A program made the position numbers and the translations under genes. A DNA stretch of 64,000 nt, taken from Anadara kagoshimensis. Taxonomy: Eukaryota > Mollusca > Bivalvia > Arcoida > Arcidae. The notes under the pieces were generated by a model. That model did not search any database and was not told the DNA's origin. It saw only the letters and a program-made list of their open reading frames with translations. The stretch spans positions 23,619,534 to 23,683,533 of the forward strand of contig CM037874.1 of the NCBI GenBank assembly GCA_021292105.1, read 5' to 3'. Shown piece by piece: positions 5,836 to 63,802 of this stretch (position 1 is its first letter; every line of letters begins with the position of its first letter).

Positions 5836-6890
5836 TTAAGTCAAATGCTATCGTACAGTACACATTACATATAGAACACCTCTCGTAAAACATGATTTGT
5901 ATATAAAGATTTGCATAAAATACTCGGTTTTTTTCTTAAAATGACGCAATCGATTTTTATTGACGTTATCTCGTAAAATGATTATGGCGTCATCAATTAA
6001 GTTTGTGCAAGTAATGGCGATGTTAGGAAAATGTTGGTCAGGAACAGTTATCTCACCCTAGTATGAGACAAGGAAATCACACATGATTTTCATGTCATAT
6101 TCGTGAAAAACCTGTCTTGCCAGACTACCTTTCGTATCAATTGGGACTAAAGAAAGTGATTACATAGTAGTAGAATGTTCTGTCAGTTCGTTGTATGGAT
6201 GCAAGAATTTGAATTTACAAAGCGCCAAGAAGGCAAGATTTGTGGTGATATTTCGTGACAAACATACCCATACAAATGAAAGTCTACTATTGTACTATAA
6301 AGAAACATGCTAATTGTAAAATTGTAGTATTTGATCCGTTATCAATAATATATATATGGACTTAATTTATCCCCACTTCATAAAATATATTTGAATAATT
6401 CACTAACACCACAAATGCGACTTATTCTAATTTTCGTATCGGTATGCAGGAGTTAGTTGTGTAAGAAACCATACAAATAATTCAAACAAAAGAAAAGTAT
6501 ATTTTCATCTTTTGAATCCATTTTTAAAAAAGATGGTATGCATATACGTTTTTATGCAACTTTTAAATATTAAAATTTTGTAAACAGCATAAGATAAATT
6601 TAGGTTGATATGAAACAAACTTGTACAAGTTGTAGGTTGATTTATTTTTATACAAATATTTCACCTATTTTGGAGCTTTTTACCTTTATGTCAGGTATTT
6701 TTGATCATTGTTTGATGGTAAAGTTATGAACACGTCATTGTATATGTATGTCTAAGACATTGATATGATTCAGCTAAATAGTATTTATTATTACAAGAAC
6801 TTTCTAGAAAAAACAGTTTGTTATTACTTTTTCTTTGAAATTGAAAACAATTTTTTGGGTGACGAAAATGTGTTTTTTATTTCAACAAAT
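5836..6890. other. Intergenic, upstream of secreted-peptide gene 1
   Basis: AT-rich with no supported feature until the TATA box of the next gene. Confidence 0.45.
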
Positions 6891-6893
6891 GAC

Positions 6894-6902
6894 TATAAAT
6901 AA
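6894..6902 (+). promoter_or_regulatory. TATA box of secreted-peptide gene 1
   Basis: tataaataa lies about 97 bases before a strong splice donor (CCAG|gtaagt, exon end 6990). Gene 2 has a TATA box at a similar distance from its own first donor, which supports this reading. The start of transcription would fall near 6925. Confidence 0.5.
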
Positions 6903-6924
6903 GACGTTTCTTTCAGACAATTTC

Positions 6925-6990
6925 ATAATTATTTGGATACTACCATCAAGCTATTGTTAAAAGCTCTTAAAGGTTTTACGTTTAATCCAG
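6925..6990 (+). other. Predicted non-coding first exon of secreted-peptide gene 1
   Basis: Bounded by the expected transcription start 30 bases after the TATA box and by the donor gtaagt at 6991. The matching acceptor is tttacag at 7789-7795, one base before the ATG, giving an 805-base intron. Inferred; the left boundary is approximate. Confidence 0.45.
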
Positions 6991-7796
6991 GTAAGTGAGT
7001 TATTACTATATATAATTATCTTTCAATCTTCATGTACTGTTGATGGCCTAGACAATTTAAAGTAATTCACTAATGGGATGGTTTAAAAGCATGTAGTCTA
7101 AAATATGATTCATAGATATCATTTGACAATAAACTTACAATCATACATTGCTAAAATTATTACAAATTACTGCTTAATAAAAATATATTGTGTATTAATC
7201 TATATAATATAGAATCGAAGCACTGTTTATTTTTACATAAATACAAAAAACATAAAAAGTCATATTGATACTATAGCTTTTATGCTCTCGACTTTGGACT
7301 GGTATTGGATACAGCGATAAATATAGATTAAAGAACATGTAAAGAAGTATTTTTTCAATATTGGTATTATATACTATATGAATATCACAATATCGAAAAT
7401 CGCAACAAAATTGATGACAACATGATGCTATTATGCAATAAGCGATTCATTTTAATAACTATCGATTTAATAAAGCTAAATTTGACATGCGGTATGGTCT
7501 CTTGTTTTGTGTTGATTTATAATACCGTTGTGATTTTGTATGTACATGAATGCACGTTTTAAACTATGTTAAGTGCACTATAGCATTTACATCTGTATAA
7601 CCAAACAATTGGAAAAAAATTGAAGCGGTCAGAAAAAGCCGCCATTTGCCTTGACCAGTCACGTGATTTCCCCCACATTATGTATGTGATACATATATTA
7701 AAACAAAAGTTTTAGACACCTTAGAAAATGTTTAATAATTTCATCAAATTGTTTAAAGAAATTATTTTCAACGTTTATAAACCCTCTATTTACAGG

Positions 7797-9093
7797 ATGA
7801 AGGCTGTGTTATTGGTTTCGATACTATCTTGTGTGTTCGGAATTACTAAAGCACAAAATCAACATGTATCAGGTATTTTTGTTTGTTTCTTCTTCTTTTA
7901 CTTCTTGTGTTTTGTCCTTCTTCGAATTATTATAATTATTATTATTATTAATGTTGCTAAATAAAATAAACAATCTATCTGACAGTTTTCTAGTATACCC
8001 TTATATTTAAGGTGAAATGATCTATGAAAATAGTCATAAAATAAATACTTATATTTTTGTAACTTTTATTGTTCCTTGACGTGAATGATTTATTTTTTTA
8101 AATTTTACAGGAGTTCTTGGAAGCGGGACATACCATGTGACAGATTCCCGATGGAATCGTCAAGATCGAAGTGATATGGTCAATCATCAAAGATTTGGTT
8201 GGCAAGACGGTGATGGTTCATGGCAAATGAGAGAATTCTATGGAAACAATAGAGGATTCGGAAGGGCATTTCCAGGTAAACATAGATTTTTTATAAATAA
8301 CACAGACGTTATATCCTGTCCAAATCATATAATGAAGGGTATAATTAAAAAACATATTGGTCAATGTTAAAATCACTATCCAAAAAAGGAAAGTAAAATC
8401 TTTGAAAATTATATTAAGTCAGTGAACATCACCAGGGAAGTGAGCCCTGGTGCTCCAGAAGGATACGTGCCTTCAGCCCAGCTGGCTATAAAACCACCTG
8501 TAAAATAATGGAAATTTATCACAATATGATAAAAAAAATACAGTTAGCTATTCAATGTAAGCATTCATTTATTTTGTCCATTGGGTCAACTGATATTCAT
8601 GTTAGGTCCATATACATCCCAGAATAATTTATTTCATTTTCAGCTAATAAACAGACCAGGAAAATAAACAGATTTGCCAATCTGTGAAAAGTCCTATACT
8701 ATTGTCTATTATAACTGAAAAGTAATATAGTTGTTTCTTTTACTAATATCAACATAAAGATATTTTCAAATTGAAATGGTCTGTTGGGTTTTGGAAATTA
8801 TCATGGACACTGTTTTATCATTTTATCAAGAAGTACGTGCATTATCAAATTTTACTTCGTGGTAAGATCAAAGTCGTGGCATTTTTTATATCAAATACTA
8901 GGAAGTACATCATTGCACATACTCAACGTAAAATGCAGCCCAATGGTTAAATTTTTCATTTTAGTTAGAAAATTATAAAATATGTTTTAAATTGTTAAAA
9001 ATAAATAAATGTATATGAAAACAACGATCGTAAATTCTCATTATAAATAAAATTGATTAATTCTCTTTTTATTTTATTTCAGGATTTTTCTAG
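7797..9093 (+). CDS. Small secreted peptide, paralog 1 (three coding exons)
   Basis: Coding exons are 7797-7872, 8111-8275 and 9083-9093. All junctions are AG|...|GT and phase 1, and together they give 83 residues and a TAG stop. Residues 1-19 are a typical signal peptide (hydrophobic LLVSILSCVFG ending GITKA), so the product is probably secreted as about 64 residues. The mature part starts QNQHVSG, has the core GVLGSGTYHV at residues 26-35, lacks cysteine, and is rich in Gly, Arg, Asn and aromatics (FYGNNRGFGRAFPGFF at the end). The third exon adds only the last three residues. I chose this ATG because a splice acceptor ends one base before it; an upstream in-frame ATG at 7728 lies in the predicted intron. 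The paralog at 16916-17628 on the other strand shares exon layout and core. I do not recognise the family. Extracellular matrix, shell, mucus or signalling roles are possible but unproven. Confidence 0.75.
8310..8505 (-). mobile_element. Penelope-like element 3' tail fragment in intron 2 of gene 1
   Basis: An inverted, diverged copy of the tail shared by many copies here (caccagggaagtgag...ggtgctcc...aagg). It sits inside intron 8276-9082 of the secreted-peptide gene. Confidence 0.6.
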
Positions 9094-9353
9094 CATCTGA
9101 GAACTTGTTAAAGCCATTCGTCACTTATTTCATCTAAGCTCAAGAAGTCATTCTTCATTCTCAATGCCATCCTAGTTGATAGTTTGAAGCCAGTCACCTT
9201 TCATTTTGTCATCGGAGTTCAAAGTTCAAGCATCGTAGCCAATCACCGCCATCCATTTCATTTGAAATAATTTTATCTGTATTTAAATATTGTAAATATT
9301 GTTATTTTGTTGTATTGTTATTATTCAGCATTTTGTTTGGTAAATAAATGATC

Positions 9354-9359
9354 AATAAA
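9354..9359 (+). terminator. Polyadenylation signal of secreted-peptide gene 1
   Basis: AATAAA about 260 bases after the stop codon, the only canonical signal followed by a T-rich stretch in this 3' region. Confidence 0.55.
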
Positions 9360-9513
9360 GTATATGTTGATTTTGTTATATTTAAAAAACGCTGTTTTTC
9401 TGTAAATAAATTTTAATAAGAAAACAAAATTTACGAAACACAATGTATCACCATTTGTTATACAGGAACGATATAAACATGTACAATGTTATATAGAAAT
9501 ATGTAACTGAATA

Positions 9514-9766
9514 ACACGTATAGGTAAACAGCATTGACCTGTCCGCTTGACCTTTGATTTTAATTTTCATTATGGACGAGTAAATTTAAGTAATAGGGAT
9601 AAGGCGTGTCTATTTCGTCTATATGATGTGAACACTAATCATGGGCAATGTCTATATGTATTAACTGTGAATCCTAACGTTACCTATGTATTGGATGGAC
9701 CCTCCTATATGAATATTCCTAATGAAAGGTCAAACGGACAGGTCAATGCTGTTTACCTATACGTGT
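9514..9766. mobile_element. 253-bp MITE with ~39-bp terminal inverted repeats (family M)
   Basis: The ends acacgtataggtaaacagca (9514) and tgctgtttacctatacgtgt (ending 9766) are exact inverse complements. The match continues inward through ttgacctgtccg-ttgaccttt with one mismatch. There is no transposase inside, so it is a non-autonomous DNA element. Related ends occur at 34092/34844, 45561/45793, 50353/51056, 57488/57724 and 61992/62696. Confidence 0.85.
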
Positions 9767-9779
9767 CAATCAGACACAA

Positions 9780-10860
9780 ATTACATCTCACTACAATAAC
9801 AGTCAAAATAAAAAAACAACACCCCAATCCATGTCCAAATCATAATCTCAAAGCAAAGTAAAAATCTTATTAAATCAAAAACCTAACGTAATAACCCATG
9901 ACAAAATTACAATCCAAAAGCAAAGTAAAAACTTCGAAAGTGACAAATTTGGTTACGCACCTAAACTTCCACCAGGAAAGTGAGACCGGAAGGGTAAGCA
10001 CCTCCTGTTTAGCTAGCTACAATCGCCACGTGTATGAAAGAAACATCTAACTATTTGATATCACAAATATATCGGGTAATTTTGAATAGAGAAACGTCAG
10101 ACTTATGAACAATATTGTGATGACGGCATTAACTTTTTGAGGGCCCTGATAAGCATAAGCTTGCAATATTTCTTGGTCAAAAATATATTTGTAAGCTGCT
10201 TGTTTCGTCATATAAAGTTCTTGTTTTTGGAACATTCTATACGATAACGTATTAATTGGTAAACAAATACGCCTCAAACAGAAGAAACAAATACATTTCT
10301 TTATAGAAAAAAGTTTTCAATAGAAATACTTCGAAGCAAGCTGCTAACACATAAACTGTTGACTCGGGGATATTGCAAATCTAGCCTTACCAAGGCAAAT
10401 AGATAAATGGTCGCCATCACAACATTGTTGAGATGTATAAAGTCTATGTTTTCAAAATTACCCTGGATATATTTGACGCCTAAGAGTTTGATGTTCCATT
10501 TACTCTCAATTTTAATAACATACGTTATGTGTTTAGCTAGCTTAACAAATATATTGCCTCTTAAAACATTTTGTTGATGCCACTTCAATATGATTCTTGG
10601 AGTCCGTATCGTGCTTGACAACATAATCAAAATCTCTGTTCAGAACAAGATTATTGTAGCTTTGCTTCTCTTTTAAAAATTGACCATAGACAATTCTTTT
10701 TGTTTTAGCTTTTCTCTAAATTAAGAAGAAGAGGTAGTGGTTATAGCGAAAAAGTCTAAGTTTTGTATACTTATTACACGAGATGAAGTATAAGGAGCAA
10801 GATGTAATTTTTTAAGAATGCACATTTGGTTGATACCAGATATAGAATAGACTTTATCTA
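9780..10860 (-). mobile_element. Penelope-like element, rearranged and decayed
   Basis: Minus-strand copy running from the tail (9780-10045) through the C-terminal reverse-transcriptase part (10050-10300). The upstream RT part at 10545-10860 can be compared with 27375-27690. Between them, 10325-10545 holds a second copy of the C-terminal part in the opposite direction (tgttgactcggggatattgc on plus), so the element is a mosaic with an internal inverted piece. No long open frame remains. Confidence 0.7.
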
Positions 10861-11199
10861 AATATGACGGAAGACCATCCTTGGCGACAGTTAAACTTTG
10901 TGTTATTAGATATTAACTACATTTAGATAAACCTGCTATCTATCTTTCATCAAATGATTTTTTGTACCCTTTAAGAATCCAATACAAGTAAGGAAAGACA
11001 AGTTCTTACTCCTTTATAGACATGGATTAGTATGTTTGTTTTTAATAATATTGATACCGAAACAACCATCTTTGGTAAAATTAAGTTCTGGTTTATTATT
11101 TAACAAACTATATAAATTGAAGCATATATTATCGGAAATTGTTACGTCTTGTTTTTTATAATGTCAATAACATTTACTTCTGAGTAATAATAACAAAAA

Positions 11200-11262
11200 C
11201 AACAACAACAATATAATAATAATAAAAATAATAATAATGATAATAATAATAATAATAATAAA
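11200..11262. repeat. (AAT)n-rich microsatellite
   Basis: Imperfect aac/aat/ata trinucleotide repeats. Confidence 0.8.
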
Positions 11263-11560
11263 TTAAATGCTTAAACACTATCAACAAATGGACATACAAT
11301 GGTAAAGTAGTTAGAACTGTAGATTGTTATATTTACATTGGGTTACTTATAAATTATAATTGAGAATTTAATTATTTACACATCAAGTAAGCAGAACAAG
11401 GTCGTACGCTCTTTTTCAGTTTCAAACAAAAAAGACATTGTATTTAAATATCGATTCACTGTTGTCACTTTTTGACTTTGACATATGTAGCCAGTGTTAT
11501 GTTTGCGAGTTAATAAAAAGGATTTATCTATCAATATTTCTAAATCTGTTTTATTTTGCA

Positions 11561-11823
11561 TCCTCCAGACGGTCGTTTCGGAATAAAATCCCTCATCAGT
11601 AGTGCTCGAGCCAAAAATTTGGCAATCCAAACATTTTAATGTTAAAATGAGAAAAAAGGACCAAAATGTATTTTACCAAATTCATGTTAGACAATACTTG
11701 AAACAATAATGCATTGCTTAGTTTTTTGAAAAAAATTTTAATTTAGGAAGAAGATTGTTTTGATAAACACTGTCCAAGTACTACCGATGAGGAATTGTAT
11801 TCCGAAACGGCCGTCTGGTAATG
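11561..11823. repeat. Inverted repeat with ~45-bp arms
   Basis: The left arm near 11561-11608 contains cagacggtcgtttcggaata and ctcatcagtagt. The right arm near 11776-11823 contains the inverse (actaccgatgag, tattccgaaacggccgtctg). About 165 bases lie between. It could be a small TIR element or an inverted duplication; I see no transposase. Confidence 0.65.
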
Positions 11824-11929
11824 TAAAATTAAAAATGGTATAACGTGTAATTTATCTAACAATATTATGTATTGCCTCCTAGGATAATGATATAATCGGG
11901 GATGCTTATCATACTTACATACTTTTTAT

Positions 11930-12301
11930 TAGGGTTGGTTGGCTGGTTGGTTGTATGCTGCTTGACGTCGAATCAGCAATTATTCAGCTTTTTGCGACGA
12001 GAACTATTTCATTAATTTCTATGGATTAATCTATGAACAATTTCGGGTATGCATGTGAAGTGCAAGTGTTTTGTCTGCCTTGTAATAGCGCGCACTCAGG
12101 GCGACTTTAAGGTGCTAGCACACCGAGTCAGTACGCCGCAGACAAGCGTACCACTCTTCCATTGCATTATACTGATACCAGGTTAATCAGTAAAGGCTCA
12201 TGGCAAGGAAAATTCACTTTCCCACAGCGGGACTCGAACTCACAGCGGTGAGAGACCCTGGATTTGTAGACTGACGCCTTATCCATTACACCACCGCGGC
12301 A
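11930..12301 (-). repeat. tRNA-derived SINE, type 2, near full length
   Basis: On the minus strand the head at 12301-12218 looks like a tRNA (GGTGGTGTAATGGATAAGGCG A box, GAGTTCGAGTCCC B box). The body ends in a (CCAA)n-like tail, seen on plus as ggttggttggctggttgg at 11934. A second copy without the head is at 32566-32765, and body fragments lie at 40537 and 52708. Confidence 0.8.
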
Positions 12302-12598
12302 TTTGCTTGGGATGAAAAGCACAAAAGACAATGCAGCTGTATATTGTGATATTCGTTACAGGTTAATGGGAAAGAACCAATTTTTAAGTTGCCTCAAATT
12401 ACTGAAAACCTCCGATTGTATTTTACGAGAAATTAATATTTTTTCTTAAACTTTTGTGGCGCAAAACCTTCTTTTAAGTATAATCATTTGCCATGTATAA
12501 AGCAAGCATTATTTCATTTTGTTTTGTGTAATATGGTTCTTTCCATATAATTTTGACCCCGTCTTTTACATACTTATTTTAAAACAACAGATAATAAT

Positions 12599-12780
12599 AG
12601 ACCAGTGTAAGAAGGATATGTTGTGCAAGATTCAATCTACATGTTTACCAGTATATATCTGATCACAAAATTGTCTGAAGGAATCATTGTTAGACCAGTG
12701 TAAGAAGGAAATGTTGTGCAAGATTCAATCTACATGTTTACCAGTATATATCTGATTACAAAACTGTCTGAAGGAATCTC
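12599..12780. repeat. Tandem duplication of ~92 bp
   Basis: Two adjacent copies beginning tagaccagtgtaagaagga, at 12599 and 12691, differ at only a few positions. Nothing else is recognised in 12302-13295. Confidence 0.85.
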
Positions 12781-13295
12781 TGAGTCCTTAAACGTGTATA
12801 GCAAAATACGCTTATCTAGTCATAGTCTTGCAATAGACGTATGGTGGTATAAATGGTTGTTAAGCATAACAGTTTTTGCTTTTACTATAAAACTGTATAG
12901 AGCTTGAGTATCACTTTATATTACTATGCCTTCTTTACACAAATTATATTAAACCTTATTACTTGGCAAAAGCGAGTATGTGTAAGTAAGGACAGTTGCT
13001 AATTGTGAGGTGTTAATTTTTTCCATCTTTTTACATTCGTAATTAAACTGTTAACACTTTGTTTTAATGTGCAGTCTTAATATATATTGCTCTATTACAG
13101 ATGACGTTCCGAAAAGGATCATTAGACCAATCCAATCAAAGCAGCCAACAGCAAATAAAAAGATTAGTTTGTAATGAGCGTATGGCTTTGTATATTTGAC
13201 AATTTTTCTTTTGTATAATCCAATGCTAATGCTTCAAAACTTTAACAAAAAGTGAAATTCTTATAATAATTTTTACTTTCAACTTTCCTTTTTTA

Positions 13296-13760
13296 TGCAG
13301 CAATATACCTGCTTCTCCTGCTTATGGTGTATTTGTTTTCCAATTAATACGTTATGATAGAGCTTGTTCCCACTACGGGGACTTTGTACAACGAAGTAGG
13401 CTGCTTGCAAATAAATTGTTGACTCAGGGATATTGCAAGTCTAGGCTTATCAAGGCCCTCAAAAAGTTTTATGGCTGTCATCACAGTATTGTTGACAGGT
13501 TTGATGTCTCTGTGTCCAGGATTGCCCTGGATATTTTTGACGTCTTATAGTTCCATGTTCTTTTCACACAATTTTGAATACACACGTGGCGGGTGTAGCT
13601 AGCTAAACAGGAGTTGCTTACCCTTCCGGAGCACCCGGCCTCACTTCCCTGGTGTACGTTCACGTGTCCAACCTAACTTGTGAGTTCCAAAGTTTTTACT
13701 TTGCTTCTGGATTGTGATTCGGATATGAATTAGTATGTTCGTTTTTGATTACCTAAGGAA
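13296..13760 (+). mobile_element. Penelope-like element, C-terminal RT part plus 3' tail
   Basis: Plus-strand translation from about 13300 gives the C-terminal part of the reverse-transcriptase polyprotein (IPASPAYGVFVFQLIRY, then SRLLANKLLTQGYCKSRL). The family tail follows: tagctagctaaacagg, ccttccggagcaccc, acctaacttgtgag, and the terminal catatgaattagtatgtt-like end. 5'-truncated, as is usual for retroelements. Confidence 0.8.
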
Positions 13761-14390
13761 CCTTTTAGCATATGGGTGGTCATACACTATTAAACACGCC
13801 ATTGCTATAGATTTATTAACACAGTTTACATGTATGTGTCGATTTATCAGAGAAATATTTAGAAACTTAAAACGAATGAATGTGCCAGATACTAAAGGGC
13901 TTTGATTTATTGTGATAAAATAAATTTATTATATATGCAAGTAAAGAGATTTATTTGAATCAATGTCATTTCACACAATAGATATATAATTTATGTTTAT
14001 AAGTTTAGTTTTAAGAGGAATGTACAGGCATTTTACATAGCTTTTTTGGTTTGTTTCAAACTATAATTTTAATTTTAAATACATGTGCAAGGTTGGTGGC
14101 ATTTATATAACGTTGATAACATAATATTCTTGGACCACACAAGTTACTTCATTTGATTTTCACAAAAGTACCTGTAAATTGACATTATTAAAGAATATTG
14201 ATTTATCAGCACTTAAATATATATATATATATGTTCAAGTTTAATGTGGTAAAATTTTAGTTTTTACTGGTTTAATCACTGCCAGAAAATACAAAGTCAT
14301 TTCATTAAAAAAAGTACATAGATTTACCATTCATCAGTATAAGTCTAAAGAGATGTTTCAGAATATCTAAGTCCGCCAATCTTTCTGAGA
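13761..14390. other. Intergenic, short (TA)n only
   Basis: A short ta run at about 14218-14232; otherwise nothing recognised. Confidence 0.5.
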
Positions 14391-14815
14391 AACACTGATT
14401 AACCCCAATCGTTTACTAAACAGAACAGGGAACTGTAAAGTTGTTAATAAATGTACAGCAAAACACGAATATTACGAACACTATAACACTAAATACATGG
14501 ATAGTGCGAAGTCAGATATTGGGCCCAACTGAACACTGATTAACCCCAATACTTTACTAAACAGAACAGGAAACTGTAAAAATGTTAATACATGCACAGC
14601 AAAACACGAATATTACGAACACTATAACACTAAATACATGGATAGTGCGAAGTCAGAAATGGGGCCGACTGAACACTGATTAACCCCAATACTTTACTAA
14701 ACAGAACAGGAAACTGTAAAAATGTTAATACATGTACAGCGAAACACGAATGTTACAAACACTATAACACTAAATACATGGATAGTACGAAGTCAGATAT
14801 TAGGCCCGACTGTTC
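14391..14815. repeat. Three tandem copies of a ~141-bp unit
   Basis: Units start aacactgattaacccc at 14391, 14532 and 14672 and run to about gcccgactg. Copies differ by a few substitutions. An open frame at 14722-14940 is an accident of the third unit. Confidence 0.9.
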
Positions 14816-15520
14816 CTGCACACATGTATAAGTCTATTTATAACAATATAACGAAATTATTTTATAACAAAAAGTTTAAAATAGCGTCACTGAGGCTTCG
14901 CTATAAACGTGTTTTATTGTATTGTGTGTTTTTATGTTAAAATTCATGTAGTTATGTACAGGTTAAACATATACTTGCATATAAAAAATAATTTGAATAA
15001 GAACATTTCAAATAGAACATTCTATATTTTTGCCGGTAGCAGCAGTGTACCTTACAGCATTGTGGGCTTTAATTTATACTAGTACATGTACGTATAGCTG
15101 CAATACCAACAGTTCTTCATTATAAAAACAATTTATCCCTTTTGGTAAATTGAATAGTGATAAAAACAAACATACTAATCCGTGTCCAAATCACAATCTA
15201 GAAACAAAACAAAAACTTTGGAACTGAAATTCTGATTACCTTGACAACGGCCAGGACGTCCAGTAATGTAATCTATGAATCTGATCATGTTCGTTAAAGA
15301 TTCCATGATGACTGACAAGATAATTAATTAACAAAAGCGTAGAATACTTAAAATACTTGTGTGGGTCTGAGATGGATTAAAGTAATGTTGTTTGAAGCTC
15401 ATTATGTCACTTTTAATTGAGGCGACCAGTTCAGGGATGGTGGTGGAAAGCAGATTCCCCGAACCTCCAATCTTCAATGAGTATTCTGGAAATGTTTCTT
15501 ACACTAAAGTTTATCAATAT
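14816..15520. other. Intergenic with a short Penelope tail remnant
   Basis: A minus-oriented tail remnant lies at about 15165-15245 (catactaatccgtgtccaaa ... aaactttggaactg). Nothing else recognised. Confidence 0.5.
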
Positions 15521-15524
15521 GTTA

Positions 15525-15790
15525 GCTTAGTTGGTAGAGTGGGTTGGGTCTGACCAAGACTGAATAGATGAAAATAAGCGATAACTGTATAAAATAAATA
15601 AAAGTCACTAGTCTTTCAGATGAGACGTTAAAACCGATATTTCGTGTTATGATAGGCACCAAACGATAAAGATACCACACTGCACATTGTTCCTAGACGC
15701 ATTGCAAAGATCAAACTTTCTGCCACATTACCGTTAACTAGTGTCGGGTCTATTTTGTAAACTATTTTTATTGGGATGTCAAAATCTCCA
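15525..15790 (+). repeat. Diverged SINE type 1
   Basis: Order of landmarks as in the SINE at 945 but with many changes: tagcttagttggtagag, ggtctgaccaagactga, agtcact..ctttcagatga, and attgggatgtcaaa at the end. Confidence 0.55.
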
Positions 15791-16800
15791 TTGAATTAGT
15801 TAACCACACTGTGGAATCTTCATGAAGGAGATTCGAACCCAGCTTGGTGATTATATTCACTGTGGCCAGTTATCAATAGATTTTCGATCATCGAGGTGCC
15901 TGTTTGGATCTGGTTCTTCAATTTTTCCAGAACCTTTCATTTCATATTTTCTAGCATATTTAAAAACAAACATACCAATTTATGTTCAAAACACAATTCC
16001 AAAACACTAAACGACTTTTACATAAAATAACAAACAACAGATTTATATAGAAAATAATACTTATTATCTTATTTAATATTGCACATAAATAAAATGGAAT
16101 ACATGTATAACAAATAAATATTTTAAAAATAATAAAATTGTGCTTTAGATATATACGGTGAACTTCATACTCCTCTTTCATGCAAAGATAAAACAAAATA
16201 TTCTCTCTGAAAAGCTGAAAAATAAATAACACTAGTGTAAGAAATTTGAGACAAAAGATATTATCTTAGTCTGGAATATCACTCTGACTTGAGTCGAATT
16301 GATTTTTTGATGAAATATAAAAAATACGTTGTTAGACAAATGTTCATATCTCCCTCAAACAAAGGCAATAAATTGTTTATTATACCGAAAGATAACCATG
16401 GTAATAAGAAAGACAGAAAAAAAGAAAAATATTTTCAAAAAGACAGTCTGAAAACATAAGTTCTTCTTCGATTCATTGCTTTTTCTCCTATCTGAACTCA
16501 TCGGAGACAAACGCTAAAACGTAGTGACTGATTCTCTATCGATTTTCAACAAGTATTTTTGTGTATTCTACGGCATTAGCTTAGTGTAAATAGAGCTCGC
16601 CAGCGTACCACGTGATCAATACCCCTTAGCGTTTGTGCGGAGCATTTTGGAAAACGTTTACGTCGAAATTTCCAGAGAAACGTCATTTTTACGGGAAAAC
16701 GTGAACTGAAGCATTTTTTTCCAATGGAAATAATTATTCCACAGAAACGCTATTGGGTATCACGTAGTACACTGGATAACCCCATTGTTTGTTTCATTTT
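15791..16800. other. Intergenic between SINE and gene 2
   Basis: A short minus Penelope tail end is seen near 15960-16010 (aacaaacataccaatttatg). Otherwise AT-rich with no supported gene. Confidence 0.45.
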
Positions 16801-16801
16801 C

Positions 16802-16872
16802 AATGGGGTTCGCCGCTGTTCCGCACAACATTTTAGAGCTATTTATCACTTGGTACAGCGGCGAACCCCATT
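16802..16872. repeat. Perfect inverted repeat, 18-bp arms
   Basis: aatggggttcgccgctgt (16802-16819) and its exact inverse complement (16855-16872), separated by 35 bases. The GC-rich arms stand out in AT-rich DNA. They lie just past the stop codon of the minus-strand secreted-peptide gene. Confidence 0.85.
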
Positions 16873-16877
16873 TAACG

Positions 16878-16883
16878 TTTATT
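16878..16883 (-). terminator. Possible polyadenylation signal of secreted-peptide gene 2
   Basis: AATAAA on the minus strand, 33 bases after the stop codon. This would give a very short 3' UTR, so a more distal site is possible. Confidence 0.4.
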
Positions 16884-16915
16884 TGTTAACACTTTGCATT
16901 CTTTGCATACCTTCA

Positions 16916-17628
16916 CTACCACCAAGGGTATCCACGTGGTCCCATCCCATATGCAAACCGCTCATTCATGAAATATGGACCATTCTGTCCACCCCATTGC
17001 GTTTCCCTTACTCTGTATGTCCCACTTCCGAGTACACCTATAAATAACAAAATAAAGTAGGCTTTACATAAAACAATGACATTATTAGTCTGATAATCTT
17101 TGTACTGCTATTCAGAATATTTTTAGTGTAGCTAGCTAAAGAGAATGTGCTTACTCTTCCGGAGCACCTGGTCTCGCTTCCCTGGTAGAACTTCACGTGT
17201 TTAACCTAACTTGTCGGTTTCAAAGTTTTTACTTTGCTTCTGAATTGTGACTCGGACATGGATTAGTGTGTTTGTTTTTTATTTGAAACGTTGACGTCAT
17301 GAAATAGAGACTCCAACAAGGTGCTAATACCAATGAGTAGTTCGGGTACAAATTAAATAAAAAATCATTCAAATTCGTTCATTGTCACTTTAGTACTAAG
17401 GATACAACATTTGCTAGATATATATTTGTACAAGAAACATCACCGAATTTAAACACAATATTAGATAGCAAGAATACCAACATGTAAAATTTAAGAAATT
17501 TAGAAGCATTTTAAAAATAGTTTAAAGGTTACCCTACCTTGCACGTGTTGGCCACCATTAATGACCCTGGACTGTGTCTGAGCACACAGCAATGAAAACA
17601 ATAACGCTACTATAGCTGCCAATTTCAT
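16916..17628 (-). CDS. Small secreted peptide, paralog 2 (two coding exons)
   Basis: On the minus strand the coding exons are 17628-17538 and 17037-16916, with a phase-1 GT-AG intron. They give 70 residues and a TAG stop. Residues 1-20 are a signal peptide (LAAIVALLFSLLCAQTQS). The mature part contains GGQHVQGVLGSGTYRV, aligned with QNQHVSGVLGSGTYHV of the gene at 7797-9093, then a W-x-x-Q and an NERFAYG block matching NHQRFGW there. It ends GMGPRGYPWW. There is no cysteine in the mature part, and Gly and aromatics are frequent. It lacks the tiny third exon of paralog 1. The ATG follows a splice acceptor (attacag) by one base, as in paralog 1. The coding intron contains a Penelope tail (17125-17285). 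Function unknown: I infer secretion, and the shared core suggests a conserved peptide family, but I know no named family with this motif. Confidence 0.75.
17125..17285 (+). mobile_element. Penelope-like element tail in the intron of gene 2
   Basis: tagctagctaaagagaatg, ccttggtag-like and acttgtcggtttcaaagt blocks and a terminal ggacatggattagtgtg. Tail only, 5'-truncated, inserted antisense to the host gene. Confidence 0.8.
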
Positions 17629-26544: not shown

Positions 26545-27700
26545 ATAAAAATCCAGAAGCAATCTAAAAACTTTGGAACTGACAAGTTAGGTTAGACACG
26601 TGAACTTCCACCAGGGAAGTGAGTCCGGGTGCTCCGGAAGGGTAAGCACCTCCTGTTTAGCTAGCTACACCCGCCTCGTTTGTAATCAAAATTGTGTGAA
26701 AAGAACATGGAACTATGAGACGTCAAATATATCCAGGGCAATCCTGGACACAGAGACATCAAACTGATCAACAATACTGTGATGACAGCCATAAAACTTT
26801 TTGAGGGCCTTGATAAGCCTAGGCTTGCAATATCCCTGAGTCAACAATTTATTTGCAAGCAGCCTACTTCGCTGTACAAAGTCCCCGTAGTGGGAACAAG
26901 CTCTACCATAGCGTATTAATTGGGAAACAAATACACCATAAGCAGGAGAAGCAGGTATATTGATGCATAAAAAAGGAAAGTTGACAATAGAAAAAAGTCA
27001 TCACGTTTGTCATAAAGTTTCAAATGTAGCCTTTCGTGTGCGTCATAATTCAGGTATAAGTCTAAATATGAAGCAGAACTTGAAGAATCAGTCGTGTCTT
27101 TTATTTCAAGCTCACTAGGATAGATGACATTTACATAGTCTCCAAATTTAGGATTGTTAAGAGACAGAACGTCATCTATATATCTGTATGTTAAGTTGAA
27201 TGATTTGGCGACAGTCTTCTCTCCAGATTTAACAAGGTTCTGCATAAATTCTGCTTCGTAAGAACAAAGAAACAAATCAGCAAGCAATGGTGCACAGTTT
27301 GTACCCATTGGTATACCGATTGTTTGCTGAAAAACTATATTACCAAATACAACGAATATGTTATCTGTCAAAAACTCTAACATTTTGTTGATGGTATCTT
27401 CAGTATATTTTTGTTTGGAATCTGTATGGTGCTTGACAAAATAACCAGAATCCCTGTGCAGCACCAGATATTTGTATCTTTGCTTACCGTTTTTTGTAAA
27501 AGAAAGACAAGTGAATAATTTCTTTAAGACGTTCTTTCAATTTAGAATGAGGGATAGTGGTGTATAGTGTAGAAAAAATCAAATGTTTTTATACTTTTTA
27601 CATGAGATTAAGTATTAGAAGCAAGATGTTCAAGTAATTCTTAAAATGTTTGAGAATCCACATTTGGTTGATTCCAAATGTAGAATATCCTATTGCAATT
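26545..27700 (-). mobile_element. Penelope-like element, best preserved copy
   Basis: Minus-strand, 5'-truncated copy. It spans the upstream RT region (27600-27465, with a frameshift), the RT core (27464-26990), the C-terminal part (26990-26713, in another frame) and an approximately 150-base tail ending near 26545. Several other fragments in this window align to it, so it serves as the reference copy. Confidence 0.8.
26916..27464 (-). pseudogene. Reverse transcriptase core of a Penelope-like element
   Basis: A 182-codon open frame contains the RT palm motifs GIPMGTNCAPLLADLFL (about residues 50-66) and YRYIDDVLSLNN (about 93-104), with the YxDD-type catalytic aspartates intact. It then has the SASYLDLYLNYD and LKLYDKRDDF blocks. 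RT copies element RNA into DNA. After DDF the frame shifts within a T run near 26988, so the C-terminal part (AYGVFVSQLIRY, LLANKLLTQGY) continues in another frame to a stop near 26713. The N-terminal part is also frameshifted. Family assignment rests on the RT motif pattern. It is clearly a retroelement; Penelope-like is my best call. Confidence 0.75.
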
Positions 27701-30622: not shown

Positions 30623-33600
30623 ATGGATACCATTACATTGAACATTGGTGGAACAATTTTTGAAACTTTCCGAAAGACGCTTCAAACAATTCCGAATTCA
30701 AAACTTGCAAATATAGAGACAAATGAGACCGCATATAATGCAAATAAAAAATATTACTTTTTTGACAGAAATCCGGAACTGTTTAATAACATACTTGATC
30801 TTTATCGAAACGGGAGTCTTCATTTTTCAGAGAATGTATGTTTTGCGTCTGTTCGACAGGAACTGGAATTCTGGGGAATTCCAATCGAGCGGATATCGCC
30901 TTGCTGTATGAAGGTGTATTACAAATATGACAGCAACTTGAATCTTCATGAAGAAATTGAAAAAGAGCTGTTCAACAATTTCATGGATTATGACCAATTG
31001 GAGTATGAGCGCAGTGCTTTCACCAGATTTAAACGTAATGCCTGGTTATTTTTTGATCAGCCACATTCGTCTTTAGCAGCTAAGGTAAGAATAAAAGAAT
31101 CTTAAAAGAATCTGACACCGCGGTGATTGTGTTTAGTGAACAAGAGTATCGACAAACATAATTTAGGATCATTTGTCAAAAAATTTGTCTCATCGATATC
31201 GCAATATCGAAGAAAAAATGTCAGAAAATTGTCTATTTTACATTATACTGAGATTACTCAATGCAAACGATGTTAAAATGACGCCATGAAGCCACGCCAA
31301 TGTAAAATCATTTTCTTTAACCATCCTTTTCAAGACTTCGTCGCGAATGCTGATACCACGTAAATCAACATTACAACTAACAACAATTAGACACGTGAAC
31401 TTCCAAAGGGAATCGAGAGCGGGTGCTCCGGAAGGACAGGTTCCTCCACGTGTATATCAATATCAAAAACAAACATACTAATCCATGCATAATCACAATC
31501 CAGAAGCAAAGTAAAAACTTTGAAACCGACAAGTTAGACTGAGAATGAAAAAAAATAGAATTATGTAACGTAGAATTATATCCAGGATAATGTTGTACAG
31601 TCAAGTCTGTTTAAAAAGGCCACCCAAGGGAACCAGTTAAAGTGGCCTTTATGGGCAGGTGGCCTTTATATGCAGGTTCAAATAATATGAATAAAGAACA
31701 ATTGGGATACAATTCTACTGGCCTTTATAAGGAAGTGGCCCTTATAAAGAGGTGGCCTTTAAGGCAGGTTGGACTGTATATAGAGAGAGACATCATACTT
31801 ATTAGCGGTATTGTTAAAAATTAATGATTTTTATTAATTTCATAGACTACAATATCAGACTGCGCAGTTTCAAAATCATTCCTTAACTAATGAATCCCTT
31901 AACTGAAATATAGGAAAAATTGGCAATCCTGTTAAACACTACAAATAAACACTTTTGACAACCCTAAAAATAAAAGTTATAAGCTGTTGATTAAAATAAC
32001 ATCTAAAAATCCTAGATATCTTAACAATTAACAAAATTATTACGGTATAAAATTTGCCAGATTTAAGATAAGGAAACCCTTAGTTCTGGAATGATTGTCA
32101 AATCCAGAATTACATAGAAACTTGCTCTGTAAATGCACTAATCTGCATTTGATAAAATCAGCATAAAATTCATGACCGTTTAAAATAGCATAGTACGTAT
32201 AAGAAATTAATTATTGAAATTCACTATCTTTATTATCGTTAGATATCAAAGACACGCGTTACATATTTTATAATTTTAACCATTTGAAATTTTGTAATGA
32301 CCGGTATATAACGTCAAGGCATTTGATTAATATCATTTATGTTAAATTTATGTAAAATTTATCGGTCATACTACAATAACCTACGGTAGCTCATATGTTA
32401 GTGCTAAAGTGTCATAACTAAGAGTGTCAAGTGGGGTAATGGCGTTGTACGTCCTTGTCCAAAGAATTCCACTTATATAAGTCATTTCTTGGATGGTGAA
32501 AGAAACCGTAGAACCCGAAATAAACCCTTGACCTTCGATAGACACATGGCAGACTTTCACATACTAGGTTGGTTGGTTGGTTGACTGTTGCTGAACGTCG
32601 TATCAGCAATATTTCAGCTATTCGCGATGAGAACTATTTTTTAATCTCTGAATTAATCTATGAACAATTTCGTATACGCGTGTGAAGTGCGAGTGTGTTG
32701 TATGGTCTGCCTTGTACTAGCGCGCACTCAGGACGACTTTAAGGTATACCTGATTGAAGTTATTGGGCGTAGTGTGAATTTCTTTGGATTTTCCCGTTTT
32801 CAACGTTACGCGCAGCGTTAAAGTGGGGATCTAGAAACCCGTTGACACACAGATTGTCAACAATGCCGGAACTACTTTCTATTGTTGTTATCGGCTGATA
32901 ACATATAATGACAATTAAAGTGTTATCGAAGTTGTAATAATGAAATTGTAAATATTATGGCTTGTTGTAGATTGTTATGTTGTTTAAGTCACAACAGAAA
33001 CATTATAGCTATTCGAGACAAAAGCAAGTTTATCAATCTCTAAGGACAAATCAATAGGATGGAATACATTACTAATTATATACAACAAATATATGAAGAA
33101 TTTATATCAACTCTCCTATTTTTATATTTCAGATATACAGTTACGTGTTCTTGCTTGTTGTTGTCCTCTCTTTCGTAGTTTATGCCATGGGGAGCCTTGA
33201 AGCATGGCGGGAGCAGTATCTCAGCGACGAGCGTATAGCCTACCTGAAATACAACGCAACATCACTTCCGGGACTTTTGGGATTAATAGATTTTAACAAC
33301 CCGAAATTGACAATGTTTCTCACAACAAGACCGATAAGCCATTTGGGCACAATAAGAAATTCTTGTCGTTTATTTTTTGCCATAGAATTTTTCCTGCATT
33401 TTTTATTTTCTCCACGGAAATGCGCCTTCTTCTTAAACGGAATGAACGTCCTTGACCTTATATTGCTTATAGCCATGGTCGTCAATTTCGTTCTAGACCA
33501 ATACCCTGATATCCTTTTTAGTAGTTATGCAGCCGCTATTGTGTATTCCATATTTCACACAATGAATTTTTTGCGGATTTTGAGAATATTTCGCTTGATG

Positions 33601-34844: not shown

Positions 34845-34944
34845 AACAAGGACTTTGATAAATGGGATGGACATTTATTTTAAGTTTTATGTGGTAATGT
34901 AGGAACAGTTTAAAACAAAGTCCGGTATTTTTAGTTGTTAGAAA

Positions 34945-36042
34945 ATGACGACAACTGCGACATCCGCTGATAGCGAATTACGCATAGTGACAGAAGCGTT
35001 CTTGTAACAACCACGGATAGCGAATCGCGCATGGTAACAGAAACGTTCTTGTAACACCCGAGGATAGCGAATCATGCATGGTGACAGTAGCGTTCTTGTA
35101 ACACCCACGGATAGCGAATCACGCATGGTGACAGTAGCGTTCTTGTAACACCCGCGGATAGCGAATCACGCATGGTGAAAGAAGCGTTCTTGTAACACCC
35201 GCGGATAGCGAATCACGCATGGTGACAGTAGCGTTCTTGTAACACCCGCGGATAGCAAATCACGCGTGGTGACAGTACCGTTCTTGTAACACCCGCGAAT
35301 AGCGAATCACGCATGGTGAAAGAAGCGTTCTTATAACACCCGCGGATAGCAAATCACGCATGGTGACAGTAGCGTTCTTCTAACACCCGCGGATAGCGAA
35401 TCACGCATGGTGACAGTAGCGTTCTTGTAACATCCAGGGATAGCGAATCATGCATGGTGAAAGAAGCGTTCTTGTAACACCCGCGGATAGCGAATCACGC
35501 ATGGTGACAGTAGCGTTCTTGTAACACCCGAGGTTGCGAATAACGTATGGTGACAGAATCGTTCTTGTAACACCCACGGATAGCGAATCGCGCATGGTGA
35601 CAGAAGCGTTCTTGAACATCCGGGGATAGCGAATCATGCATGGTGAAAGAAGCGTTCTTGTAACATCCGCGGATAGCGAATCACACATGGTGAAAGAAGC
35701 GTTCTTGTAACACCCGCGGATAGCGAATCATGCATGGCGAAAGAAGCGTTCTTATAACACCCGCGGATAGCGAATCAAGCCTGGTAAAAGAAGCGATCTT
35801 GTAACACCCGCGGATAGCGAATCATGCATGGTGAGAGAAGCGTTCTTGTACACACCCGCGAATAGCGAATTGCGCATGGTAACAGGGGCATTCTTGTGTT
35901 GAAACCCTCGGATAGCGAATCACGCGAACGCATGGTGGCAGAAACATTCTTGTAACACCCGCTGATAGCGAAACACGCATGGTGAAAGAAGTGTTTTTTT
36001 AACACCCGCCGATAGCGAATCACGCATTGTATCAGAAGCGTT
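34945..36042. repeat. 47-bp minisatellite, array I (~23 units)
   Basis: The unit consists of gtgacagtagcgttcttgta, acacccgcggatagcgaatc and acgcatg. Units vary at a few fixed positions (gacagt/gaaaga; cgcgg/cgagg/caagg). The edges degrade towards both flanks. The array starts about 100 bases after the family M element. Confidence 0.95.
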
Positions 36043-48659: not shown

Positions 48660-49756
48660 TATTTGATCTACATTAATAAAACAAATAGGTACAACATTTA
48701 GCTAATCATGTTAGTTAGTTGAATTGGGTCGTTCTTTATTTAACTGGCTTGTGCTATTACACTTGTGTTTTCATTAAATATATATACTTTCAATACAACA
48801 TTGTTTATACCCTGAGGAATAGTCTGTTATTGATTTTTGCAACTGACATAATAATATGGTAATATTGACAGTCTTAAGGGTTTTATTCATCCTAAACCTG
48901 AAGTACGGCAAAATGTATATTTTATCATGGCCGACAGGTTCTAGTTATTTAAAATGCCGAATCAAAAGAAACTATGAATCTCATGAATGGATTTGACACT
49001 ACATTGATACTGTATTAAGGATCCATTGTCTAAAAATAACATTAAGTTTTGTTTAACGTAAAGAGACAAAATTATAACTTATGTAGGATATGTTGAATCT
49101 AGAACAACATTCCATGTCATTTAATTAGTTCAGAGAAAGGTTTCGTCTTTGCTTGATATTCTATCGTATTCTTCTTGTCCCATGGTAAAACGTAAACTCG
49201 TGAAAACATGCAATTATAATGTGCACTAAATATTAAAACTTGATTTACACAACTATTTTAAAAATACGTGCTTAAAATAAAGTCTGAAATAAACCAGTTT
49301 TCTTTATTAAAATTTTTATACCCCAGACTAAATTAGTTTGATCGGGTATGTGTAAGAATAACCTTTTTTTGGCCTGTCTGTCTGTGTCAGCTCCGTAACA
49401 TTTCCATTTATTGGCCTACTAACATGAAGCGATGTAGCGCGTTTGGCCTTTAGGCGTGTTGGTAAAAATATTAAATTTCGAACCTTGGTTGCAATTGGGT
49501 CATTTAGCTCTATAGCGATACAGCGACAACCCTAGTCTACGTTTTTCGATATTAAATCGCATACCATAAGTACTTTTTAAATATCAAAAGCCATTTACAA
49601 AAGATGTATAATGCTACTTGCTAAATATATTATGCCACTTAGCAACAGATATGAATTTATGTTGTCATCGTGTTTATCTGCTGCATCAGTCTCACCAGTA
49701 ACAATTCATTTATATAATGGTATTATAAGAATAACTCTATAACTTCATTTATATAG
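48660..49756. other. Spacer up to the duplication junction
   Basis: Shared with 60297-61392. Contains a stretch cctgtctgtctgtgtcagct near 49372 that looks repetitive. No gene. The junction to the Kv-A fragment is at 49756/49757. Confidence 0.5.
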
Positions 49757-51056: not shown

Positions 51057-51157
51057 AACAAGGACTTGGATAAATGGGATAGACATGTATTTCATGAGTT
51101 ATGTGGTAATGTACGAACCGTTTAAAACTAATTCCGGTATTGTCAGCTGTTAGAAAG

Positions 51158-52033
51158 TGACGACAACTGCGACACCCGCGGATAGCGAATCACGCATGGT
51201 GACAGTAGCGTTCTTGTAACATCCGCGGATAGCGAATCACGCATGGTGAAAGAAGCGTTCTTGTAACACCCGAGGATAGCGAATCACGCATGGTGACAGT
51301 AGCGTTCTTGTAACACCCGCGGATAGCGAATCACGCATGGTGACAGTAGCGTTCTTGTAACACCCGAGGATAGCGAATAGCGCATGGTGACAGAATCGTT
51401 CTTGTAACACCCACGGATAGCGAATCGCGCATGGTGACAGAAGCGTCCTTGTAACATCCGGGGATAGCGAATCATGCATGGTGAAAGAAGCGTTCTTGTA
51501 ACACCCGCGGATAGCGAATCACACATAGTGAAAGAAGCGTTCTTGTAACACCCGCGGATAGCGAATCAAGCATGGCGAAAGAAGCGTTCTTGTAACACCC
51601 GCGGATAGCGAATCAAGTCTGGTAAAAGAAGCGTTCTTGTAACACCCGCGGATAGCGAATCATGCATGGTGAGAGAAGCGTTCTTGTACACACCCGCGAA
51701 TAGCGGATCACGCATGGTGACAGAAGCGTTCTTGTAACACCCAAGGATAGCGAATCATGCATGGTGAGAGAAGTGTTGTTATACACACTCGCGAATATAA
51801 TAGCGAATCACGTACGGTGACAGAAGTGTTCTTGTAACACCCGCGGATAGCGAATCGCGCATGGTAACAGGGGCATTCTTGTGTTGACACCCTCGGATAG
51901 CGAATCACGCGAACGCATGGTGGCAGAAGCATTCTTGTAACACCCGCTGATAGCGAATCACGCATGGTGAAAGAATTGTTTTTTTAACACCCGCGGATAG
52001 CGAATCAAGCATTGTATAATATCAGAAGCGTTT
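51158..52033. repeat. 47-bp minisatellite, array II (~19 units)
   Basis: Same unit as 34945-36042. Array order is partly shared with array III, including the odd tacacactcgcgaatataata unit near 51781. Confidence 0.95.
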
Positions 52034-54343: not shown

Positions 54344-55161
54344 CACAAAATCGATAAAACTAACACAGCATTTTACTGTTAAATATTTAATGAACATAGA
54401 AAAGGTAGGAGAGCGAGTTTAAACATTTACAGGGGAATGTTTTGGCGAAACTATGATTAAGAGGACTATTAATTCCAGATCGATCCTTGTCGGAAAGAAG
54501 CTAGTTTTTTGTGCATGGATGAGATGGAAGAGCATTATTGATCCAGGATATATCATACTAAGTTATCTGGTTAATTAACTTATATATATACAATATATAT
54601 ACACATGATCTAGATATTTTTACACATATCACCGAACAGAAAGTGCATTTGTTGTTTCATACTCTTCTAGAAATCTCACGATGGATACTGCTGCTATGGA
54701 ACTTGTCACATTAAATGTTGGGGGCACTATGTTTGAAATCACCAATGAATGTTTGAAATCTTTTCCGGAAACTCGTTTATCCAACTTGTCGAGTTCATCT
54801 CCGGAATTCATTAAAGAAAGAAAGCAATACTTCTTCAACAGAAATCCGGAAGTGTTTAACTCCATCTTGGATTTGTATAGGACCGGAAGTTTGCATTTAC
54901 CTACAAACATATGTGGCGCCACTTTGCGGAATGAATTAGAATTCTGGGAAATTCCCATTGAATATCTGTCAGAATGTTGTATAAAAACATACTTTAAATA
55001 CGACAGTGATGTAGAGAAAGTTAAGGAAATAAACAGGGTGTTCGGTTTGAATGACACGGGGTACTCTGAAGAGGAATGTCAGAATAGTAAATGGACAAGG
55101 TTCAAGAGAAACGTATGGGTATTCATGGATCAGCCGACATCATCATTACCGGCAAAGATAA

Positions 55162-61991: not shown

Positions 61992-62696
61992 ATAGTGAAA
62001 CAACATTGACCCGTCCGTTCGACGGTGTGTTCCCCGAACGCCTACTCGTATAAAACAACACCTAATTAGAGATGGGGATTAAGGGGCCTTTCAAGGGTGC
62101 TTTACCTTTTATAAATAAATATTAAAAACAACAATTACCAACAAAACCATCCTCGTCTAATTTAAAGTAAAAAAAGGATTAAAATAATACTATCAAATAC
62201 GCAAAATTTATTATTTAATATAAACTGTTAAGAGAATTTTATCAAATGTGATTCAAACATTACAACTCATTATGTATTTTGCGCAAATTCGTTAAGAATA
62301 TTCATATTAGGATGATCCATTGATTATATATGTTGTGTTAGGATTTGCAATGAGTACACGGGTCAGTCGTTCGAAGCATGATTAGTTAAATCAATTGATT
62401 ACTTAAAATTTAAATCAGGCACAAATCCAGAAATGTTATAAACAAAATGTTGAAATGTCGAAAATGAATAAAATTTTTTATCAAACTAAAGAAAATTGTA
62501 TTTTTATTTTTATTCATGTTTTAAAAGTTTCGAACAACTGGGTCTTTGTGTTGACACCTCGATAATATTGTTTCCATTGGAAATACGAAATAAACATTAA
62601 TTTATATTCACTATATACAATTTTTTTTTGTCCATTACAAATAATTAAAATTAAAGGTCAAGCGGACGGATCAATGTTGTTTGCCTTTACAACAAG
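61992..62696. mobile_element. TIR element family M, copy III
   Basis: Counterpart of 50353-51056, very similar. Confidence 0.7.
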
Positions 62697-62790
62697 GACT
62701 TGGATAAATGGGATAGACATGTATTTCATGAGTTATGTGGTAATGTACGAACCGTTTAAAACTAATTCCGGTATTTTCAGCTGTTAGAAA

Positions 62791-63802
62791 GTGACGACAA
62801 CTGCGACACCCGCGGATAGCGAATCACGCATGGTGACAGAAGCGTTCTTGTAACACCCAAGGATAGCGTATCACGCATGGTGATAGAAGAGTTCTTGTCA
62901 CACCCGCGGATAGCGAATCACGCATGGTGAAAGAAGCGTTCTTGTAACACCCGAGGATAGCGAATCACGCATGGTGAAAGAAGAGTTCTTGTAACACCCA
63001 AGGATAGCGAATCACGCATGGTGACAGAAGCGTTCTTGTAACACCCGCGGATAGCGAATCACGCATGGTGAAAGAAGCGTTTTTGTAACACTCGAGGATA
63101 GCGAATCACGCATGGTGACAGACAGTAGCGTTCTTGTAACATCCGCGGATAGCGAATCACGCATGGTGACAGTAGCGTTCTTGTAACACCCGAGGATAGC
63201 GAATAGCGCATGGTGACAGAATCGTTCTTGTAACACCCACGGATAGCGAATCGCGCATGGTGACAGAAGCGTCCTTGTAACATCCGGGGATAGCGAATCA
63301 TGCATGGTGAAAGAAGCGTTCTTGTAACACCCGCGGATAGCGAATCACACATGGTGAAAGAAGCGTTCTTGTAAAACCCGCGGAGAGCGAATCAAGCATG
63401 GCGAAAGAAGCGTTCTTGTAACACCCGCGGATAGCGAATCAAGTCTGGTAAAAGAAGCGTTCTTGTACACACCCGCGAATAGCGGATCACGCATGGTGAC
63501 AGAAGCGTTCTTGTAACACCCAAGGATAGCGAATCATGCATGGTGAGAGAAGTGTTGTTATACACACCCGCGAATATAACAGCGAATCACGTACGGTGAC
63601 AGAAGCGTTCTTGTAACACCCGCGGATAGCGAATCGCGCATGGTAACAGGGGCATTCTTGTGTTGACACCCTCGGATAGCGAATCACGCGAACGCATGGT
63701 GGCAGAAGCATTCTTGTAACACGCGCTGATAGCGAATCACGCATTGTGAAAGAAGTGTTTTTTTAACACCCGCGGATAGCGAATAATATCAGAAGCGTTT
63801 AT
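62791..63802. repeat. 47-bp minisatellite, array III (~21 units)
   Basis: Same unit as arrays I and II. Extra units near 62840-63010 distinguish it from array II. Confidence 0.95.

Follow-up and report, generated by a model that had tools for sequence, protein, structure and literature searches.

Two short genes, here called gene A and gene B, lie on opposite strands in a 64-kb stretch of Anadara kagoshimensis DNA (the window, C18:23619534-23683533 of a 1.115-Gb assembly in 36 contigs; coordinates refer to the window unless a contig position is given), and judged from the DNA they apparently represent two divergent types of a lineage-restricted family of small secreted peptides in this genome. 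According to the spliced frames, gene A on the plus strand encodes 83 amino acids and gene B on the minus strand 70, and in both a predicted signal peptide is followed by the core GVLGSGTYxV. It was found that the genes share the main features of their exon/intron organization, that the core occurs at four places in the whole genome and that the coding exons are constrained between two copies of the locus; the genes are very probably real. We suggest, with a probability of roughly 0.4, that A and B are matrix-type peptides of a surface secretion.

Results

Structure of the two genes

All five splice junctions of the model (6990/7796, 7872/8111 and 8275/9083 in gene A; 18346/17629 and 17538/17037 in gene B) have a GT donor and an AG acceptor. 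In each gene a TATA box stands upstream of a non-coding exon 1 closed by a GTAAGT donor, the next acceptor precedes the ATG by one base, a phase-1 intron splits the Gly codon in front of VLGSGTYxV, and an AATAAA follows downstream of the stop codon (Table 1). The precursor of gene A reads MKAVLLVSILSCVFGITKAQNQHVS-G-VLGSGTYHV... and that of gene B MKLAAIVALLFSLLCAQTQSRVINGGQHVQ-G-VLGSGTYRV.... An earlier note, made from the letters of this DNA, had proposed two spliced genes of 83 and 70 residues in opposite orientation, and the junctions together with the open frames bear this out; its description of the TATA boxes, the non-coding first exons, the one-base spacing and the split Gly codon holds for both genes, and the signal peptide that it assigned to each was agreed with by eye.

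An intron in the 3' untranslated region (3'UTR) of gene B, with a donor right past the stop codon and an acceptor near 16216, was considered and rejected: the would-be last exon was conserved no better than the would-be intron (10.8% and 10.1% divergence, respectively), therefore a short 3'UTR with the AATAAA at 16883 was preferred. Immediately 3' of gene B an inverted repeat with the ends GGGGTTCGCCGCTG and CAGCGGCGAACCCC occupies positions 16802-16871, where the locus copies described below differ more than they do in the gene.

Relatedness of A and B and rarity of the core

On sequence comparison A and B are paralogues. BLASTP aligned the two peptides with 37% identity over 63 columns (E 5e-11 in a single comparison), and the conserved part consists of QHVxGVLGSGTYxV, the following W, Q, N and RF positions and an aromatic C-terminus (FPGFF in A, YPWW in B), the ends RAFPGFF and RGYPWW corresponding to each other by eye; the common positions listed in the earlier note agree with this. 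Within the QHVxGVLGSGTYxV block, the codons for residues common to A and B differ mostly synonymously, a pattern expected of paralogues under constraint. No third member of the family was found in the window by six-frame tblastn.

A common string of eight residues is in itself weak evidence: when the first 28 kb were resampled 50 times by a Markov model, one turned up in 7 cases, and interspersed repeats raise the number of shared 8-mers to 254 in the actual sequence of this stretch. The claim that the likeness is unlikely to be chance is backed instead by the distribution of the core in the genome and by the conservation of exons over introns between the locus copies. A degenerate DNA pattern for GVLGSGTY matched four places in the 1.115-Gb genome (control 0), namely the two genes A and B and one further pair, A' and B', all of them on one contig. 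Protein searches of the genome with the core exons of A and B (E up to 10) gave four first-look candidates each, all four were scored, and they were the same four places, where the cross matches between A-type and B-type were weak (E 1.6 to 2.5); such searches give minimum numbers for large families and could miss relatives more distant than the A-B divergence. The core is thus not a dispersed repeat. An origin from a transposon or dispersed repeat, which the earlier note had raised as a finding that would overturn its proposal, was looked for and rejected, as many copies would be expected and the four places in 1.1 Gb share a single contig.

One stretch recurs in introns of both genes (about 8341-8461 in A, about 17156-17282 in B); it was rejected as a part of the genes, since on the B side it is a copy of an interspersed repeat present several times in the window. 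A genome pattern search for an intronless copy with the QHV-G junction joined gave 0 matches (control 2), using a poorly designed pattern which speaks only to that form. In viral and prokaryotic contig collections 10, 36 and 9 stretches matched a pattern and none was confirmed as a relative, which says little given the nature of those collections.

Second pair of genes in an inverted copy

The second pair is located 6 Mb from the first, with B' on the plus strand near C18:29712.3 kb and A' on the minus strand near C18:29722.1 kb. The window region has a copy there in opposite orientation, which aligns over 10.2 kb at 94.5%, 4.4 kb at 91.4% and 3.1 kb at 92.5% identity. Most long blocks of this copy are 91-96% alike; it reaches beyond 49 kb of the window, into an array of potassium-channel genes, and at the other side its alignment ends at about window position -54 (C18:23619480 / 29730461). 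From these alignments the copied segment seems to be limited in extent: for 10-kb stretches at 23.75, 24.00 and 25.00 Mb no long high-identity match was found in the 30, 60 and 60 kb, respectively, around their mirrored positions, where the matches of at least 400 bases were 73-80% identical. The inverted copy may be a real duplication or else a haplotype placed wrongly in the assembly, and in the latter case A' and B' would be alleles.

The core exon of A' is identical to that of A at the amino acid level. The donor of intron 2 is altered in A' (near C18:29722.3 kb), so that the canonical in-frame donor is lost, and use of the nearest GT would break the frame; A' may be a recent pseudogene, differently spliced, or misassembled at this site. 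This argues against a strict need for the A' copy and not against gene A. The GT and AG sites of B' were kept, as inspected by eye.

Coding constraint between the locus copies

Comparison of the two locus copies indicates that coding constraint on the family is measurable. In 148 codons compared between A and A' and between B and B' (25, 54, 30 and 39; the split Gly codons and those of exon 4 of gene A excluded) there were 8 synonymous and 4 non-synonymous changes, which corresponds to a ratio of non-synonymous to synonymous rates (dN/dS) of about 0.14, with a binomial p of 0.001 when tested against a simple neutral model that ignores transition bias. The signal peptide of A carries two of the amino acid changes and the B signal peptide one, and the sole change in a mature part is G66E in B'. 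The coding exons differ from their copies by 13 substitutions in 451 positions and by no gap, and introns 1-3 of gene A with introns 1-2 of gene B by 168 in 2990 and 27 gap runs. Furthermore, the stretches from the TATA box to the end of exon 1 are unchanged (0/105 at 6886-6990 in gene A, 0/84 at 18429-18346 in gene B), and exon 4 of gene A differs from its counterpart in A' at 5 of 308 positions.

Properties of the peptides and library searches

Cleaved after KA, as placed by eye, mature A would have 64 residues, an isoelectric point (pI) of 8.6 and a charge of +1.0 at pH 7; the corresponding values for mature B, cleaved after QS, are 50 residues, 10.0 and +2.9. The mature parts of A and B contain 16 and 22% Gly, 11 and 10% Arg, 5 and 6% Trp and 2 and 6% Pro, respectively, and no Cys, in agreement with the Gly- and aromatic-rich, Cys-free composition reported for them before. 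Neither precursor translation has a dibasic site (KR, RR, RK or KK), a C-terminal amidation signal or an anionic C-terminal extension.

No Pfam family passed its curated cut-off for A (E 0.27) or B (E 0.14), and the matches in the PDB are taken to be at chance level, the lone one to A having E 4.8. The Myticin-prepro family was found neither in the genome nor in any of 14 control genomes. The strings VLGSGTY and LGSGTY did not occur in the paper texts searched, which is weak evidence as sequences are seldom printed in text. In the predicted structure of the core exon of A, with B as the only aligned relative, the mean predicted local distance difference test score (pLDDT) was 57.5 and the predicted template-modelling score 0.24; 13 of 56 residues reached a pLDDT of at least 70, and one plausible hairpin (residues 24-46) was seen at low confidence. 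The family was called unrecognised in the earlier note, and with no convincing match in the libraries searched we agree.

Feature coordinates and neighbouring elements

Table 1. Elements of genes A and B in window coordinates
Feature	Position	Strand	Remarks
TATA box of gene A, TATAAATA	6894-6901	+	read from sequence
Gene A non-coding exon 1	6925-6990	+	start approximate (~30 bases past TATA box); ends at GTAAGT donor
Gene A exon 2	7796-7872	+	one base, ATG at 7797, signal peptide, QNQHVS, first base of split Gly codon
Gene A exon 3	8111-8275	+	remainder of split Gly, VLGSGTYHV core to FP, first base of next split Gly
Gene A exon 4	9083-9391	+	GFF, stop 9091-9093, 3'UTR (end approximate), AATAAA at 9343 and 9354
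TATA box of gene B, TATATAA	18428-18422	-	read from sequence
Gene B non-coding exon 1	18400-18346	-	start approximate; ends at GTAAGT donor
Gene B exon 2	17629-17538	-	one base, ATG at 17628, signal peptide, RVINGGQHVQ, first base of split Gly codon
Gene B exon 3	17037-16878	-	VLGSGTYRV core, YPWW end, stop 16918-16916, AATAAA 16883-16878; transcript end approximate

At 30623-64000 the window carries voltage-gated potassium-channel-like genes in tandem, in which blocks that are about 98% alike recur at a spacing of 12-16 kb. Pfam assigned BTB_2 exons at 30623 and 42434 (a similar frame lies at 54609) and Ion_trans exons at 33097 and 45584 (related frames lie near 49735 and 61424), and arrays of a 47-base tandem repeat recur after the channel gene copies, at 34848-36032, 51060-52017 and 62694-63796. 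An open frame of 206 amino acids at 26916-27536 is reverse transcriptase-like by eye, perhaps of the Penelope type, and had no Pfam match at E 0.001.

Discussion

We propose that A and B would be made by a secretory epithelium or gland and act outside the cell. Signal peptidase would release an A peptide of about 64 and a B peptide of 50 residues, probably without further cutting since there is no dibasic site, and as the mature parts have no cysteine they would form no disulfides. The peptides would be small Gly-, aromatic- and Arg-rich components of a surface secretion, such as mucus, adhesive or a shell-type matrix, in which the conserved core and the aromatic residues would bind other matrix molecules.

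Several observations weigh against this proposal. The genes are known here from DNA sequence alone, and by composition, matrix, antimicrobial and signalling roles cannot be told apart. Many matrix proteins consist of repetitive low-complexity sequence, unlike the core of A and B, which is specific and conserved. The copy A' may be broken at its intron 2 donor. Additionally, the divergence between the locus copies is patchy: exon 2 of gene A (5/76, 6.6%) is more diverged than intron 3 of the same gene (30/804, 3.7%) and than the introns of gene B (13/668, or 1.9%, in intron 1 and 17/500 in intron 2), and in intron 1 of gene A, diverged by 10.9% in all, one stretch aligns poorly and A' has an insert there. 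The contrast between exons and introns could in part reflect gene conversion or an uneven age.

A matrix, mucus or adhesive role is placed slightly ahead of an antimicrobial one, in which A and B would be Cys-free, linear mucosal peptides from gill or other epithelium acting like mussel myticalins. Several features of their exon/intron architecture and the Cys-free mature part match those peptides, and B is basic. However, A is near neutral, both peptides lack the dibasic site and the anionic C-terminal extension and are not Pro-rich, their phase-1 intron stands before the mature part instead of after it, and their core is conserved whereas the mature parts of myticalins are hypervariable, so this alternative is possible and yet rather unlikely.

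Less probable again is an extracellular signal (pheromone, hormone or cytokine-like) recognized by a receptor through GVLGSGTYxV. A short, exactly conserved core and a low copy number would suit it, but without dibasic sites, an amidation signal or cysteines in the mature part, A and B do not resemble a typical neuropeptide or growth-factor precursor. More speculatively, the core with the aromatic end might be a disulfide-free binding module of a new single-lineage family, for instance a strand that binds glycans or matrix; A and B could be deployed as a pair, and the WGG of B could then be a functional, convergent sugar contact.

It is highly improbable that A and B are not functional genes at all, that is, frames that pair by accident or the remains of decayed genes. 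This would be in line with gene models read from sequence and with the lost donor of A', but it is opposed by the dN/dS ratio, the gap-free coding exons and the unchanged promoter-proximal stretches given above, as well as by the splice sites kept in B'.

The least probable of the alternatives is that B, and perhaps the ancestor too, is a fragment of a mannose-binding lectin related to the Oscillatoria agardhii agglutinin (OAA) family. When the PDB was searched with B at an E of up to 10, the three matches all belonged to this family (best E 0.059, summed over four repeats), the likeness running through Y-x-V...QWGG...P-[WY]. Against a profile of the family repeat B scored 12.7 bits, a value attained by one in 3000 shuffled versions of B; the profile was made from 6 of 10 repeats of OAA, MBHA and parts of BOA and SfL-1, and in each of these sequences the first repeat was dropped as its upstream residues were lacking. 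On the other hand, the best single-repeat E for B was 5.9, A scored -0.6 bits (a value that 1729 of its 3000 shuffled versions attained), reversed A scored 7.3 and reversed B 0.3 bits, and the corresponding Pfam family SBD (PF17882) was reported for neither core exon at E 10. SBD was found neither in the genome nor in any of the 14 control genomes. Since the paralogue A fails the profile and the family was picked after looking at the search result, membership was rejected and the WGG likeness of B is regarded as a local resemblance.

Fibronectin type I, a module whose cysteines form two disulfides for which mature A and B have no Cys, reached E 0.42 for the whole sequence and a domain i-E of 4.3 against the A/B profile, and TIGIT chains scored about the same, both at chance level.

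Comparison with known systems

Secreted peptides restricted to one lineage are frequent in the mucus, adhesives, shells and defences of animals. In this respect A and B would be of a familiar kind, and their sequences match no family convincingly in the libraries searched. Such peptides are easily missed in annotation because they are short, encoded by several exons and devoid of relatives in reference libraries; as the A/B pair is defined at base level and comes with evidence of selection, transcript and peptide searches can be run for it directly.

Byssal proteins of the mussel foot protein 3 (mfp-3) type are small and Cys-free, contain Gly, Arg, Asn and aromatic residues and have a basic pI, thus their likeness to A and B is one of composition; mfp-3 is not known to have a GVLGSGTY core. 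Proteins of this type are expressed in the foot gland, and their tyrosines are modified to 3,4-dihydroxyphenylalanine (DOPA). One study characterizes mfp-3 by its location in the plaque and by DOPA (PMC4275877). With the OAA lectins (Pfam SBD) the likeness is limited to the local YxV..QWGG...P[WY] motif of B, and the Pfam repeat model, found twice in OAA itself, has 76 positions in contrast to the 40 amino acids of the B core exon.

No closer bivalve peptide was met in the literature searched than the myticalins and modiocalins of Mytilus and Modiolus, which resemble A and B as short secreted precursors with Cys-free mature peptides. According to the original reports, myticalin genes have an exon 1 of 5'UTR only, a first intron that ends right before the ATG and a second intron of phase 1 (PMC5577615, PMC12294457), and all three features are present in A and B. 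The phase-1 intron of myticalins is placed after the mature peptide (PMC5577615), whereas in A and B it directly follows the signal-peptide exon and precedes the core. The myticalin precursors are further described with a Lys-Arg site, an anionic tail and a strongly cationic mature part of pI above 11, several myticalin/modiocalin subfamilies being enriched in Pro/Arg (PMC5577615, PMC12294457); A and B have neither site nor tail, and with a pI of 8.6 and 10.0, 2 and 6% Pro and 11 and 10% Arg they do not show such a basicity or enrichment. It is also reported that myticalin genes are clustered (PMC5577615, PMC12294457) and that their mature parts are hypervariable (PMC5577615). Because they differ in intron position, pI, dibasic site and anionic tail, A and B are not myticalins, the peptides whose published gene architecture comes closest to theirs.

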